Part shown: positions 3,136 to 14,968 of the stretch, in pieces
Numbering within the stretch: the first letter of the stretch is position 1
How the letters are laid out: each line of letters begins with the position of its first letter
Source: Candidatus Huberarchaeum crystalense
GTDB lineage: Archaea; Huberarchaeota; Huberarchaeia; Huberarchaeales; Huberarchaeaceae
Direction: 5' to 3'
NCBI GenBank assembly: GCA_002789275.1
Contig: PFSX01000011.1
Coordinates: 8,230 to 29,830 of the forward strand
DNA: 21,601 bases
Notes under the pieces: generated by a model
The model's input: the letters and a program-made list of their open reading frames with translations, nothing else
Database searches by the model: none
Told to the model about the DNA's origin: nothing
Made by a program: the position numbers and the translations under genes

Positions 3136-3309
3136 TGTATTTTTTAAAATAATGGTCGAGTATATGCTTTTAGATAATGTTTGGTGTGTGTTTTTTAAAA
3201 TAATGTTTAGGTATATGTTTTTAGATAATGTTTGGTGTGTGTTTTTTAAAATAATGGTCGAGTATATGCTTTTAGATAGTGTTTGATGTGTGTTTTTTAA
3301 ATAATATTT
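3136..3309. repeat. 51-bp tandem repeat, about 3.4 copies
   Basis: A 51-base unit is repeated head to tail; the marker AAAATAATG starts at 3146, 3197 and 3248, and a decayed fourth copy starts near 3299. Units alternate between a GGTCGAG and a GTTTAGG variant. The array fills the space between the start of the DHH gene and the 3' end of tRNA-Trp. No open reading frame of note crosses it. It may contain the DHH gene promoter. Confidence 0.9.
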
Positions 3310-6957: not shown

Positions 6958-7000
6958 TTTGATTGAGTTATATGGTAAAAACAATATTCACTCAATCAAA
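6958..7000. terminator. Bidirectional hairpin between convergent gatB and pop5
   Basis: The arms TTTGATTGAGT (6958-6968) and ACTCAATCAAA (6990-7000) are perfectly complementary over 11 bp around a 21-base loop. The repeat lies exactly between the 3' ends of gatB (plus) and the Pop5 gene (minus). Its right arm covers the Pop5 stop codon (6996-6998). This placement suggests a shared 3'-end structure. Confidence 0.6.
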
Positions 7001-7454
7001 CACTATTTTTAAGAAACTGTTTACAGGTTTTGATTGTTCCTGAAACCAAAACACAATGAAGAAGAACTTCTTTTTCATTTATTTTTTTAATCCATCCAAA
7101 TACAACTTTTAGTTTTTCCAAACTTGTGCGCGCAACTTGTATTATCATTTTGTTTTGTAAAGAAAAATTTGGAAAAAACCGAAGATTTGCTTCAATAAAA
7201 TCAATTTCTCCAAAAAGTTTAATATAAGTTATTTCTATTTCTCTTCTAAGATCATATGAGTTAATTTTTGCTTCACTCATAACTTCATAAACAACATAGC
7301 GCTTCTTATCTTGCAGCGTTGGTTTTGTTTTTACAAGTAAATTGTTTAGGGGTTTGGGTTTGCTATTTTTATCAAATGGTTTTGTTTTTACAAGTAAATT
7401 GTTTAGGGGTTTGGGTTTGCTATTTTTATCAAATGGTTTTGTTTTTACAAGCAT
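6996..7454 (-). CDS. rnp2: RNase P protein component 2 (Pop5/Rnp2) with a repeat-bearing N-terminus
   Basis: Residues about 52-150 match the Pop5 subunit of archaeal RNase P, which pairs with Rpp30 to activate the catalytic RNA for tRNA 5' processing. Typical features are RYVVYEVMSE at 52-61, an LFGEIDFIEANLRFF segment, IIQVARTSLEKLK and the C-terminal VSGTIKTCKQFL. The first 51 residues are unusual. Two perfect copies of the 19-residue unit LVKTKPFDKNSKPKPLNNL (2-20 and 21-39) are followed by a partial third (LVKTKP), encoded by a 57-bp tandem DNA repeat. The family core begins at KRYVV, so this basic, Pro/Lys-rich extension is an addition. The Rpp30 partner gene is at 20927 in this window. 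The gene is 44 bases downstream of the UPF0145 gene on the same strand. Confidence 0.85.
   Translation of the reverse strand: MLVKTKPFDKNSKPKPLNNLLVKTKPFDKNSKPKPLNNLLVKTKPTLQDKKRYVVYEVMSEAKINSYDLRREIEITYIKLFGEIDFIEANLRFFPNFSLQNKMIIQVARTSLEKLKVVFGWIKKINEKEVLLHCVLVSGTIKTCKQFLKNSV
7321..7451. repeat. 57-bp tandem repeat, about 2.3 copies, in the Pop5 5' coding region
   Basis: Exact units occupy 7321-7377 and 7378-7434, with a partial third at 7435-7451. The period of 57 is a multiple of three, so the frame is kept and 19 amino acids are repeated per unit. The lack of divergence between the two full units implies a recent expansion. Confidence 0.95.
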
Positions 7455-11096: not shown

Positions 11097-11166
11097 TTTT
11101 GTTTTGGTATTTAAGCGCGCGCCTTTTCGCGATATATTTGTCAGACAACAAACATCAAAAAATTAT

Positions 11167-11370: not shown

Positions 11371-11418
11371 AATGCAGGGGCAGGAGTGAGTTATGCAAAA
11401 CGCACAACAGCGCCAAAT
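11371..11418 (-). repeat. Partial tRNA-Leu 3'-end copy A with hairpin
   Basis: AATGCAGGGGCAGG resembles the plus-strand view of the tRNA-Leu 3' end (AATGCAAGGAGCAGG). A hairpin follows: outer arms GGAGT (11383-11387) and GCGCC (11410-11414), and inner arms GTTATGC (11390-11396) and GCACAAC (11402-11408). The outer arms no longer match, which makes the copy look like a hybrid of copy B (5' arm) and the tRNA-Thr copy (3' arm). Confidence 0.7.
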
Positions 11419-11494
11419 AATGCAAGGAGCAGGAGTGAGTTATGCAAAACGCACAACAACTCCGCGATGCGGACTTAAACCTGCGAAGATTTAT
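11419..11494 (-). repeat. Partial tRNA-Leu copy B interrupted by a hairpin
   Basis: AATGCAAGGAGCAGG is identical to the tRNA-Leu 3' acceptor and T-stem side. A hairpin then intervenes: outer GGAGT (11432-11436) with ACTCC (11459-11463), inner GTTATGC (11439-11445) with GCACAAC (11451-11457). A degenerate T-arm follows (GCGGACTTAAACCTGCGAAG against GCAGGATTTGAACCTGCGAA in the tRNA). The rest of the tRNA is absent. Confidence 0.75.
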
Positions 11495-11528
11495 GTTAAA
11501 TTTATGTTAATATTATTATATTTATATG

Positions 11529-11570
11529 AAGAGCAGGCGCGAGTTGTGAAAACACGCAACAGTATTCAAT
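11529..11570 (-). repeat. Partial tRNA-Leu 3'-end copy C with decayed hairpin
   Basis: AAGAGCAGG resembles the tRNA-Leu 3' end. CGCGAGTTGTG, AAAA and CACGCAACAG follow, a decayed form of the same hairpin; the outer right arm is lost. The copy abuts the intact tRNA-Leu trailer. Confidence 0.6.
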
Positions 11571-11572
11571 AA

Positions 11573-11655
11573 TGCAAGGAGCAGGATTTGAACCTGCGAA
11601 AGCTTACGCTACAAGGTCCTAAACCTTGCCCCTTTGACCACTCGGGAACCCTTGC
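11573..11655 (-). tRNA. tRNA-Leu (TAG anticodon)
   Basis: This is an 83-nt class II tRNA on the minus strand. Acceptor GCAAGGG/TCCTTGC has one G-U. The D-arm has a CCC/GGG stem. Anticodon stem CAAGG/CCTTG has loop TTTAGGA with anticodon TAG. The long variable arm is AGC-GTAA-GCT. The T-arm GCAGG/CCTGC has loop TTCAAAT. The discriminator is A73 and no CCA is encoded. Three degraded copies of its 3' end lie directly downstream. Its 5' leader side holds an 8-bp hairpin, CTATTGTT/AACAATAG (11666-11687). Confidence 0.95.
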
Positions 11656-11967
11656 TTTGCGGGTGCTATTGTTGTTTTAAACAATAGACGCCTCAAAATG
11701 CTTTGCACTTTGACTCTTGCTTGCCACTTAATTTTTTTACTTGCAAAATATAAACTTTTTAAATTTTTCAGCTTTTTCAGCTGAATCTATAACCTATTTT
11801 TTAATATTTATTTGAGTATATGTGTTTTTTATAAATATGTGTTAGTTATAAATAGTAGATTGTTATAATATATTCCTAAAAACATTTTTAAATTCTTTGA
11901 CCTGCAAATTTACAAAGTTATAGAGCAAACTTTACATTTATACTTTGCAAAGCTTTATAAATAATTT
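11656..11967. other. Intergenic region between tRNA-Leu and rpsO
   Basis: It holds the hairpin CTATTGTT/AACAATAG in the tRNA-Leu leader and otherwise AT-rich DNA. A TATA-like CATTTATACTTT about 28 bases before the rpsO ATG fits a leaderless rpsO transcript. No gene was seen. Confidence 0.55.
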
Positions 11968-12435
11968 ATGGCGCGACAACATACACGAAAAAAAGGACAA
12001 AGCAGAAGCTTAAGGCCAATGATTGCTAAAAACACTAATTTTAACATATCAAAAAATGTGGTTGAAAAAGCAATTGGGACGCAAGCAAAACAAGGAAAAA
12101 GCTCTAGTGAAATTGGAGCAAGTTTGCGCGACAGCTATGGCGTGCCTGACGCGAAAAAGGCATTAGGTAGGGGAATTGTATTGTATTTAAAAGAGAAAGA
12201 CCTTATTAAAAAAGACGAATTCCCTGAGGACTTAAAAAACTTGATGACCAAAGCAATTGCTTTGCACACACATTTGCAAACAAATAAACACGACGCGCAC
12301 AACAGAAACAATTTCCTAAGAATAAAGTCAAAAATCAAGCGTTTGATTAAGTATTACCAACATAAAAACTATATGCTTGATAAATGGAGATTTACAATTG
12401 AAAATGCCAAGCTTATCATTGGAGAGGTGAAATAA
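11968..12435 (+). CDS. rpsO: 30S ribosomal protein S15 (uS15)
   Basis: The 155-residue protein matches archaeal/eukaryotic-type uS15, which binds 16S rRNA in the central domain of the small subunit. It has the archaeal N-terminal extension (ARQHTRKKGQSRSLRP), an EIGASLRDSYGVPDAK helix-turn region, FPEDLKNLMTKAIALHTHL, and the conserved C-terminal FLRIKSKIKRLIKYYQ. A basic N-terminus and a length of about 150 residues are normal. The stop overlaps the rpoK start by one base (TAATG), and the rpoK Shine-Dalgarno GGAGAGGTGA lies in the last codons. Confidence 0.95.
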   Translation: MARQHTRKKGQSRSLRPMIAKNTNFNISKNVVEKAIGTQAKQGKSSSEIGASLRDSYGVPDAKKALGRGIVLYLKEKDLIKKDEFPEDLKNLMTKAIALHTHLQTNKHDAHNRNNFLRIKSKIKRLIKYYQHKNYMLDKWRFTIENAKLIIGEVK

Positions 12436-12623
12436 TGGATAATGATGACAATATTCAAAAAAACATTTTTGTACGCACGCGCATAGTGGCATTTCGCACG
12501 CACCAGCTCAAAAAAGGAGCAAAACCTTTAATAAAAAATGTCAAAGATAAGAATTCCTATCAAATCGCGCAAGAAGAGTATGATGCAGGCAAATTGGATT
12601 TTTTAATTGTTGAAAAAATTTAA
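12435..12623 (+). CDS. rpoK: DNA-directed RNA polymerase subunit K (Rpb6/omega type)
   Basis: The 62-residue product resembles archaeal RpoK, the Rpb6/omega homologue that clamps the largest RNA polymerase subunit. The family pattern TR-(I/V)-A-R--QL--GA-P-(L/V)I is seen in RTRIVAFRTHQLKKGAKPLI. The C-terminal IA-EE--AGKL signature is seen in YQIAQEEYDAGKLDFLIVEK. The sequence is rather divergent; the usual LTRFE start motif reads FVRTR here. It is translationally coupled to rpsO by a one-base overlap and a good Shine-Dalgarno. Pairing with a ribosomal protein gene suits a core information-processing role. Confidence 0.8.
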   Translation: MDNDDNIQKNIFVRTRIVAFRTHQLKKGAKPLIKNVKDKNSYQIAQEEYDAGKLDFLIVEKI

Positions 12624-12693
12624 GTAAAATGGTTTTAAATCACATGAAAAGTTTAAGATATAAAATCTCTTCTTTAAATTTTGGTTGAAAAAA

Positions 12694-13386
12694 TCAAGAA
12701 AATGAATTTTTCTTTTGCAAATATCTTTCTATTTCGCTCTCTGATTGAATTCCTGACAAAACAATCTTATTGTTAATAAGTAAGCTCGGCATTTGGGTTA
12801 TGTTGTGCGAAGCAAGCAAAAGATCAACAACTGTATTATTTAAATCAGCAGCAAGAGGAATAAGAATAAATGTGTCTGTTTGTTTGTTGTGTAAATCAGT
12901 CAAAACTTTGCTTTGCACTGCCTGCTGTGCGATTATATTTTTGTTTGTTGTTTTATCTGAGTAAAAATAAAAAATCATATTTTGACTCATATTGCATTTT
13001 TCTTTTAAGATTAAGGTGTTAATAAGAAATTCTGTTTTTAATAAAAGGTATTCTCTTTTCTTTGAATCCATTGTTTTTATTAAAATGTTAGCGTTTTCGT
13101 AACGCTCTATTTCTTGTCCTTTTTTTAAATTATTGTTTGCAAATTTGAAGTTTTGTTTAATTGCCTCTTCGCAATAATCTTTATTGCTTATTTGCTGGTA
13201 ATAAAATGTCATTTGTTTTATATTTGAAAATTCATAAGTTAAACTGCTAATTGTTAACATTGTTGCTTCTGTTCTTTGACTTTCAAACATCACTCCAACA
13301 AACAAGCCAAGCAAAAAAACAACTATTGATATTACTGCTGCCTGCCAAAATACAATATTATTATTTTCTTTTTCTATTTGAACCAT
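12694..13386 (-). CDS. Membrane-anchored thioredoxin-fold protein lacking CxxC
   Basis: This 230-residue protein has a short N-terminus and one transmembrane helix (about 12-33, rich in Val, Leu, Phe and Gly), so the rest is probably extracytoplasmic. The C-terminal third (about 125-225) looks like a thioredoxin/DsbA-type domain: a strand (MIFYFYSD), helices, and a QMPSLLIN stretch with the expected cis-proline. The catalytic CxxC is absent: SDKTTN stands where the motif would be. Only two other cysteines (in KDYCEEA and EKCNMSQ) lie earlier, so a redox role is doubtful. The gene overlaps the glycosyltransferase stop by 13 bases and has a strong Shine-Dalgarno (AAGGAG, minus strand). Confidence 0.6.
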   Translation of the reverse strand: MVQIEKENNNIVFWQAAVISIVVFLLGLFVGVMFESQRTEATMLTISSLTYEFSNIKQMTFYYQQISNKDYCEEAIKQNFKFANNNLKKGQEIERYENANILIKTMDSKKREYLLLKTEFLINTLILKEKCNMSQNMIFYFYSDKTTNKNIIAQQAVQSKVLTDLHNKQTDTFILIPLAADLNNTVVDLLLASHNITQMPSLLINNKIVLSGIQSESEIERYLQKKNSFS

Positions 13387-14618
13387 TGTATATCTCCTTT
13401 TAATACTTTATAACTTGACATAATTACAACAAAAGCAGAAAACATTGCATAAAACAATATATAGAAAAGTAAAGGGCGTGCAAAATATATAATGCTTTTT
13501 TTAAAATCTAAACGAAATGTTTTAAAACAAATAACTATGGATACAAAAAATAGTATTAATAATCCTGTTGTTAAAGCAGTAAGACCTGAGATAAAAAAAT
13601 CAAAATAAAAAGATATGCTTTGTCCCACAATTATATGATAATATAACAAAAGAAATGTATTGTAAATTTGATTTAAAAGAAAATAGCTAATTATAAAAAA
13701 GCTTAAAAACAAAATAATAACATTAATCAACATAAAAGGAAATACAATTCTACATAAAATATTTGGCTGCAACTTAAGAAAATCTAATTTATATTTAATT
13801 AAAGATTGTATCGTGCCCATCATCCACCTAATTCTTTGATTCCACAAGCTCTTAAATGTTTTTGGCACTTCTGTTGTGTTAAAAAAAAAAATAGGGCTCT
13901 TTATTTTATAATTATATTTATATATTCGCAATGCAATTTCCAGATCTTCAGTAAGGTTTTTCGTATCAAAACCCCCTATTTTTTTAATAATTTTTGTGCG
14001 AAAAATACTTCCTACCCCGTGTGTTACATATATCAATTTAATACTCTGAAAAAACAGTTTTAACACTGAAGAAAAGACATACTCCCAATATTGAATTTTT
14101 TCTATGATTTTTTTAGTATTGCGTGGACACATTGGTGGGGTTACAGCTGCAACATTAGAATCACTGAAAAATCCAATGCTTTTATATATTGCTTCTGGAT
14201 GAATATAAGAATCAGCATCCAAAACAACAAAAAATTCACCTTTAATTATGCTTATCCCTTTATTTAATGAATCTGCCTTTCCACTGTTTGTTTTGTTAAG
14301 CACTTTTACATAATTATACTGCTGAGCATAGCGATTGGCAATTGCGCGCGTTTTATCTGTTGATCCATCATTAATTACAATAACTTCTAAAAGATTTTTA
14401 GGATAATGCAACGCAATAACAGAGTCCAAAGTTGCAGCAATGGTTTTTTCTTCATTGAAAGCAGGTATAATTACACTGACTCGCGGCAATTTTTTAGGCA
14501 ATAATGGCTCCTCATAAATGCGCTTTTTATTCTTAAAATAATTTAATAGAAAAAGAGTAGAAAAATATAAAGAAATATATATTAAAGTAAGCGAAATAAT
14601 TGTGAAAAATTCTACCAT
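13374..14618 (-). CDS. Family 2 membrane glycosyltransferase (processive type)
   Basis: This 414-residue protein has an N-terminal membrane helix (about 4-27), a GT-A catalytic domain and about four C-terminal membrane segments (about 285-405). Catalytic signatures are intact: VSVIIPAFNEE (48-57), INDGSTD (82-88), DADS (134-137), the catalytic-base motif TED (223-225) and QRIRW (261-265). QxxRW typifies processive synthases such as PgaC poly-N-acetylglucosamine, hyaluronan and cellulose synthases. It may polymerise or export a surface polysaccharide; donor and product cannot be read from the sequence. The thioredoxin-fold gene follows in the same transcript with a 13-base overlap. Confidence 0.9.
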   Translation of the reverse strand: MVEFFTIISLTLIYISLYFSTLFLLNYFKNKKRIYEEPLLPKKLPRVSVIIPAFNEEKTIAATLDSVIALHYPKNLLEVIVINDGSTDKTRAIANRYAQQYNYVKVLNKTNSGKADSLNKGISIIKGEFFVVLDADSYIHPEAIYKSIGFFSDSNVAAVTPPMCPRNTKKIIEKIQYWEYVFSSVLKLFFQSIKLIYVTHGVGSIFRTKIIKKIGGFDTKNLTEDLEIALRIYKYNYKIKSPIFFFNTTEVPKTFKSLWNQRIRWMMGTIQSLIKYKLDFLKLQPNILCRIVFPFMLINVIILFLSFFIISYFLLNQIYNTFLLLYYHIIVGQSISFYFDFFISGLTALTTGLLILFFVSIVICFKTFRLDFKKSIIYFARPLLFYILFYAMFSAFVVIMSSYKVLKGDIQWFK

Positions 14619-14760
14619 AATATATTTAACAAGCGTTTTTGCAAACTAAAAACAATATGAAAATCCTATTTTTATAATTTTTATAAATTATAACCAACAA
14701 TTATGCTAATATTTATTAAAGCCAATGTAAGTTAAGATTTACTCATGACTTTGTGTTTAC

Positions 14761-14877
14761 TTTTGTTTGTAAAATAAAAGCCTCAGGCGCGAGTTGTGCA
14801 AAACGCACAACAGCGCCAGTAAAAGCTATGGTTTTACAAGGTGGGAGTTTGGACTCACGACCGCGCGCCTTTTTTTG
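14761..14877 (-). repeat. Partial tRNA-Thr copy D with hairpin insertion (117-bp duplication)
   Basis: A 27-base block, the tRNA-Thr trailer (TGTAAAATAAAA) plus the acceptor 3' strand GCCTCAGG, occurs at 14761-14787 and again at 14878-14904, period 117. In the first copy a perfect hairpin follows: outer GGCGC (14786-14790) with GCGCC (14813-14817), inner GTTGTGC (14793-14799) with GCACAAC (14805-14811). Next come a GTAAAA/TTTTAC hairpin and a degenerate T-arm (GTGGGAGTTTGGACTCACGA). The anticodon and D arms are absent. The arrangement is the same as that downstream of tRNA-Leu. Confidence 0.85.
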
Positions 14878-14895
14878 TTTTGTTTGTAAAATAAA

Positions 14896-14968
14896 AGCCT
14901 CAGGTGAGAGTTGGACTCACGACCTCGTGCTTACCAAGCACGCGCTCTACCAACTGAGCTACTGAGGC
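14896..14968 (-). tRNA. tRNA-Thr (GGT anticodon)
   Basis: This is a 73-nt cloverleaf on the minus strand. Acceptor GCCTCAG/CTGAGGC is perfect. The D-arm is GCTC/GAGC with loop AGTTGGTA. Anticodon stem CGTGC/GCACG has loop TTGGTAA with anticodon GGT. T-stem GTGAG/CTCAC is perfect. The discriminator is U73, as expected for archaeal tRNA-Thr, and no CCA is encoded. Oddly, the T-loop reads TCCAACT, so the normally invariant U55 is C. Its 5' end is 42 bases from the divergent pyrG start. Confidence 0.94.

Follow-up and report, generated by a model that had tools for sequence, protein, structure and literature searches.

The window analysed here (the whole 21,601-nt stretch of DNA, on contig C70 of its genome assembly) contains two intact tRNA genes, tRNA-Leu(TAG) at 11573-11655 and tRNA-Thr(GGT) at 14896-14968, both on the minus strand and both supported by ARAGORN and Rfam, and each is followed by partial copies of a tRNA 3′ end interspersed with a small hairpin. 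We found that this hairpin, a palindrome of about 28 nt (in tRNA sense TGTTGTGCGTTTTGCAYAACTYRCNCCTG), represents a real family bound to tRNA genes, with arrays of tRNA ends. In the preferred reading, which we hold at slightly better than even confidence, the arrays are by-products of template switching or recombination at a shared CCTG motif, followed by tandem duplication.

The assembly comprises 74 contigs and 499,820 bases and is estimated to be about 75% complete; 40 tRNA genes were found in it. Its uS15 matches archaeal-type S15 proteins, one of them named Woesearchaeota, and for its CTP synthase DPANN-type archaea rank first, with many Deltaproteobacteria also present, at 52-59% identity. 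The uS15 matches also include a relative of 77% identity on a public contig of 92 kb, and they place the window's own cluster on 33 contigs. We take the source to be an isolated archaeal lineage, probably of the DPANN group.

Distribution of the hairpin

The 19-nt core of the hairpin (GTTRTGCAAAACGCACAAC), allowing up to 3 mismatches, occurs three times in the window, against 0.02 expected from shuffles. Genome-wide the core pattern is found at six places with at most 1 mismatch and at one further place with 3; this seventh place (contig C31) was set aside, having no tRNA in the surrounding 2.4 kb, a coding-like appearance and no match to R2, our covariance model built on the hairpin with its inner stem. 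R2 identifies exactly 10 copies in the genome at E ≤ 6e-13 and, with all 93 candidates scored across the whole assembly, no eleventh at E ≤ 1. All 10 lie 6-211 nt behind a tRNA gene and on the same strand as the tRNA, although the target space behind tRNAs amounts to only about 40 × 211 nt, or 8.4 kb out of 1.0 Mb of strand. The tie to tRNA genes, proposed for the window from the sequence-only reading, thus extends to the genome, and a random scatter of hairpins does not describe it.

The five loci are spread over four contigs (C13, C16, C37 and C70) and carry three copies behind tRNA-Leu-TAG, four behind Leu-CAA, and one each behind Leu-TAA, Ser-GGA and Thr-GGT. Because duplication links the three Leu loci to one another (324 nt at 81% and 212 nt at 91%), the independent tRNA families carrying the hairpin number three.

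We also searched 296 other archaeal genomes, which share only the domain with the source, none being from its phylum. R2, run there under stricter filters with at most 22 candidates scored per genome, gave nothing convincing: 42 weak matches in 37 genomes, the best at 23.2 bits compared with 53.6-60.3 bits at home, and no tRNA beside the match in any of the 19 loci fetched out of the 42. The core pattern at up to 3 mismatches had one match in 60 other genomes (genome G050, locus L041), with 3 mismatches and in a locus without a tRNA. The two exact 19-nt cores were absent from viral contigs and similar DNA was not found in plasmid and phage collections, on which grounds a viral, plasmid or phage source was rejected. 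No Rfam family covers the arrays, even at E up to 10. The passages available from the literature on tRNA-linked repeats, palindromes and casposons contain no account of these copies, and a literature search combining tandem repeats, tRNA, DPANN and intergenic regions found nothing.

Anatomy of the arrays

The features of the two window arrays, all on the minus strand, are as follows (window coordinates).

11373..11384, minus: degraded copy of the acceptor, 3′-terminal in A, CCTGCCCCTGCA (sequence)
11378..11415, minus: hairpin copy A, outer stem GGCGC/ACTCC not fully paired (R2 E 1.2e-14; fold z -1.17)
11416..11433, minus: copy of tRNA-Leu 3′ end and trailer at the 3′ end of B, CCTGCTCCTTGCATTATT (14/14 terminal tRNA bases match)
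11427..11464, minus: hairpin copy B, outer stem GGAGT/ACTCC paired (R2 E 3.0e-14; minimum free energy -20.5 kcal/mol, z -4.28)
11471..11488, minus: spare tRNA-Leu T-arm, CTTCGCAGGTTTAAGTCC (repeat family D8; placement)
11527..11538, minus: degraded segment resembling an acceptor, 3′-terminal in copy C, CCTGCTCTTCAT (sequence)
11531..11567, minus: hairpin copy C, 6 nt past the tRNA-Leu 3′ end, core altered and outer stem unpaired (R2 E 4.3e-13; fold z -0.61)
11573..11655, minus: intact tRNA-Leu(TAG) (ARAGORN; Rfam tRNA 51.8 bits)
14761..14787, minus: 27-nt copy of tRNA-Thr 3′ end and trailer, the other copy being at 14878-14904 (sequence; repeat family D2)
14781..14818, minus: hairpin copy D, outer stem GGCGC/GCGCC paired (R2 E 3.1e-13; minimum free energy -20.9 kcal/mol, z -3.67)
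14819..14837, minus: second small inverted repeat, GTAAAA-CCATAGC-TTTTAC, between the spare T-arm and copy D (sequence; paired in the fold of tRNA-Thr with D)
14840..14862, minus: spare tRNA-Thr T-arm (sequence; partly repeat family D16; placement)
14896..14968, minus: intact tRNA-Thr(GGT) (ARAGORN; Rfam tRNA 69 bits)

Copies A, B and C behind tRNA-Leu and D behind tRNA-Thr had been picked out from the sequence alone, and all four are real (R2 E ≤ 4.3e-13). The plus-strand order given then for B and D (acceptor strand, hairpin, T-arm) is also correct, with the spare T-arms at the positions listed.

The Leu-CAA array in tRNA sense reads tRNA, a 13-base N run, hairpin C, an AT-rich spacer, a spare T-arm, hairpin B, tRNA end, trailer, hairpin A, tRNA end, trailer and hairpin X; its 49-bp tandem unit (2.6 copies) consists of hairpin, tRNA end and trailer. 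The Leu-TAG array follows the same order with hairpins C, B and A, of which A and C have no attached T-arm of their own. Behind tRNA-Thr the order is tRNA, trailer, spare T-arm, small inverted repeat, hairpin D and the 27-nt copy of tRNA end and trailer; at Ser-GGA it is tRNA, 12 nt, hairpin, CCTGCTCCTCG and the next tRNA; and at Leu-TAA copy C is followed by the contig end. Since the N run (L038:804-816) stands directly behind tRNA-Leu-CAA and the Leu-TAA contig (L128) stops inside its array, the true arrays may exceed their assembled length.

The copied ends correspond to the local tRNA, as had been suggested from the window. The last 14 nt of that tRNA are matched 14/14 in Leu-TAG copy B, 12/14 at Thr, and 12/14 twice at Leu-CAA (one of the two misses there being an N); D shares the 27 nt of tRNA-Thr end and trailer. 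When the downstream flanks of all 40 tRNAs were ranked by similarity to the tRNA's own end, Thr-GGT and the three Leu loci came out on top (38, 34, 28 and 25), with all others at 18 or below. Leu-TAG copies C and A fall below a 10/14 match. The Ser copy matches its own tRNA end at 10/14 and its flank scores 17, within background, so a tRNA-end repeat is not shown for Ser.

A comparable layout is found in Escherichia coli K-12, where the tandem repeats directly behind the tyrT/tyrV tRNA genes likewise carry the tRNA's own 3′ end. The tyrT-tyrV unit is 178 bp long in 3.1 copies, with rttR annotated there, and the last 19 nt of tRNA-Tyr recur 19/19 at three places behind tyrV and at one between tyrT and tyrV. 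Units holding the last nucleotides of the upstream tRNA in this way occur here at Leu-TAG B, Leu-CAA and Thr. The present arrays differ in their 49-bp unit and in a short palindromic core common to Leu, Ser and Thr tRNAs, and the rttR/RtT RNA family (RF00391) has 0 matches in this genome, E. coli being the only one of 14 control genomes with a match. The comparison draws on the E. coli record, and no relevant rtT/tyrT paper was found.

GCGCGC-rich stretches recur near tRNA genes (window 11115-11123 and 14862-14869; loci L038 and L039), in a genome with a GC content of 31.5% as sampled.

Pairing in the hairpin stems

From copies B and D it had been argued that the outer stem changes in sequence while still pairing, and hence that the fold matters. 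Outer pairing is indeed complete in B and D, yet in these two only. Over the 8 distinct hairpin copies, 60.0% of outer-stem cells are standard-paired, compared with 60.2% after random exchange of the 3′ letters among copies, and two-sided changes number 2 pairs against 1.5 after shuffling. Sliding the outer stem by 1-3 columns lowers pairing to 20.0-42.5%, a gap that is expected when a structure has been derived from the very sequences tested. The inner stem, 96.3% paired, is nearly invariant and has no two-sided change. Thus no compensatory change beyond chance was found in either stem of the 8 distinct copies; a compensatory outer stem was rejected, and the argument from kept pairing to a meaningful fold fails once all distinct copies are considered.

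The copies combine outer arms in different ways, a pattern that recombination would produce. B and D appear to represent two intact types, from which the mixed copies (A and the Leu-CAA copy B) would have arisen by recombination. Template-switch correction of quasi-palindromes could give equal apparent covariation without selection. Fold z scores are -1.17 for A, -0.61 for C, -1.75 for the Ser copy and -1.00 for the A′-X′ stretch.

Origin and spread of the arrays

Short tandem duplications are about ten times as dense in the sampled stretches of this genome as in the archaeal loci compared. Arrays with a period of at least 25 number 34 in 131,262 bases (the window and 8 further stretches), or 25.9 per 100 kb, while 30 archaeal loci chosen via CTP synthase have 10 in 466,158 bases, or 2.1 per 100 kb (6 in 212,257 bases at GC < 36%), counting duplications of 25-120 bp. 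Most of the arrays (24/34) are mainly noncoding, and one of the 34 has a tRNA identified in its stretch no more than 200 nt away. What is special to the hairpin arrays against this background is their common palindrome. Two other window repeats may be mentioned: a 51-bp repeat in 3.4 copies at 3136-3305, which stops 8 bases short of the tRNA-Trp 3′ end and does not include that end, and a 57-bp repeat (7320-7451; 2.3 copies, 100% matches) within the open reading frame at 6996-7454, which yields a repeated 19-residue stretch.

The hairpin ends in CCTG, invariant in the 8 distinct copies, and each of the 5 host tRNAs has the same four bases within its last 24 nt, from which we infer transfer at short identity. 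The Thr D and Leu-CAA cores share 30 identical nt up to CCTG, with differing flanks, and the spare Leu copies are best split into tRNA halves at or shortly before CC^TG, around a 39-nt insert. In the preferred reading the palindrome would have spread from one tRNA end to another through template switching or recombination at the shared CCTG, and head-to-tail duplication behind Leu and Thr would have amplified the tRNA's own 3′ end with its trailer and the hairpin. The first member of each array would be the intact tRNA itself, hence the units would stay like the local tRNA; and the units, if transcribed, may be removed in tRNA 3′ processing as a by-product.

Several observations weigh against this account. 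With CCTG present in the last 24 nt of 13 of the 40 tRNAs, finding it in three independent hosts has a simple-product probability of about 0.03; it was spotted only after the fact and counts as weak support. The spare Thr copy is best placed with splits 8-11 bases upstream of CC^TG and a 55-nt insert, shifted upstream because the 3′ side of the hairpin itself resembles the tRNA-Thr T-arm. (Derivation of the hairpin 3′ half from that T-arm is a lead only, for although 8/12 positions match, nine other 12-mers in the 40 tRNAs do equally well.) The window's Leu array, whose copies have diverged, falls below the tandem-count threshold and the sample does not include the Leu-CAA array, so that the density comparison shows a background habit and not these arrays. 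Tandem duplication alone cannot move a hairpin between three tRNA families, and site-specific insertion could explain why the copies keep to one strand and to tRNA genes. There is room for an RNA role as well: B and D each form two stacked stems with a fold better than 200/200 shuffles, and in full-length minimum-energy folds of tRNA-Thr with D and of tRNA-Leu with its array, the 5′ acceptor strand of the tRNA is captured by the acceptor-like segment of the last copy.

The last two results are what would favor a functional RNA, either a by-product RNA made together with the tRNA, as rttR might be, or a decoy acceptor predicted to compete for the tRNA 5′ strand. In control folds tRNA-Thr alone, and the array-free Ala-GGC and Leu-AAG, folded with flanks to 199 nt, retain their own acceptor pairing, a result which raised this alternative a little in our estimate and lowered the preferred reading slightly. 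We still regard a functional RNA as rather unlikely: outer pairing stands at the shuffled level, the inner stem has no two-sided change, copy C folds at a z of only -0.61, and the two predicted folds have low ensemble frequencies (0.0067 and 0.0006) and take account of neither modification nor co-transcriptional folding. Pairing of this kind is open to every duplicated acceptor strand, and the real tRNA is transcribed first; acceptor capture in these models needs nothing beyond such a duplicate and does not show a role. The main rival, which we consider possible though doubtful, is a non-autonomous mobile hairpin, similar to REP, MITE or mitochondrial RHE elements, inserted at CC^TG by an enzyme encoded elsewhere. 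It would account for a single core of 28-30 nt in three tRNA families and one orientation, and for the Leu insert at or just before CC^TG and the longer one at Thr, but the cut position is ambiguous given the Thr placements, and there are only 10 copies in 5 loci with none away from tRNA genes. Like the hairpin here, REP/REPIN sequences with their RAYT transposases are 20-40 bp palindromes outside genes; passages of PMC3733652 and PMC2817692 give REPs as extragenic and in >100 copies, in contrast to the few tRNA 3′ ends occupied here. REP-type mobility was rejected, as the Y1 transposase domain (PF01797) had 0 matches in the roughly 75% complete genome (other transposase families were not searched). 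Mitochondrial RHE or double hairpin elements are likewise small, potentially mobile and intergenic, and in one sponge many stand 5′ of tRNA genes, according to portions of PMC2800124; they belong to organelle genomes, occur also inside other genes, and in those portions are not described with a repeated copy of a tRNA end. The small hairpin mobile element suggested from the sequence alone is possible, but the repeated units fit the short-duplication habit of this genome, and the E. coli tyrT/tyrV layout is a precedent for them.

The same suggestion had offered, as its other branch, the footprint of a tRNA-targeting integrative element. In this reading the copies would be attachment-site scars of a provirus, an ICE-like element or a casposon. 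Partial tRNA copies beside an intact gene are indeed a usual result of integration (PMC9897764), and casposons use the tRNA-Leu 3′ end with a 14-bp duplication (PMC6977970). Here, however, the spacing of 49-117 bp between repeats leaves no room for cargo, one and the same hairpin stands at all five loci, viral contigs, plasmids and phages hold nothing similar, and tyrosine integrase (PF00589) and Cas1 (PF01867) each had 0 matches in the genome, whereupon scars were rejected; we consider them improbable. As the assembly lacks a quarter of the genome and the transposase search covered the Y1 family alone, the absence of machinery is no proof, for the scars or for the mobile hairpin. An assembly artefact of a short-read metagenome bin would find some support in the N run behind tRNA-Leu-CAA and in the Leu-TAA contig that ends within its array, but the window arrays are contiguous, their units differ in sequence and the hairpins lie on four contigs, making this very improbable. 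A speculative combination, to which we give slightly less credence than to the mobile hairpin as such, would have a mobile archaeal palindrome of about 28 nt entering only tRNA 3′ ends at CCTG, moved by some enzyme or through template switching, with the tRNA end serving as the first unit of a growing array, hairpin and tRNA end evolving in concert, and the extra acceptor strands competing for the tRNA 5′ end.

Two further tRNA genes of this genome, tRNA-Leu(AAG) (L133:1346-1428) and tRNA-Pro(AGG) (L131:542-616), have A at the first anticodon position, which is unusual for archaea. One PF14437 deaminase was found (L165); from its sequence it looks like a dCMP deaminase and not TadA.

With these arrays, repeats that include the 3′ end of the tRNA they follow, familiar from E. 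coli tyrT, are seen in an archaeon and at three tRNA families. In the preferred reading they would provide a route to partial tRNA copies without an integrative element, which matters since partial copies of this kind are frequently taken for scars of integration. They also point to a genome in which short tandem duplications are, in the sampled stretches, about ten-fold denser than in the archaeal loci compared.

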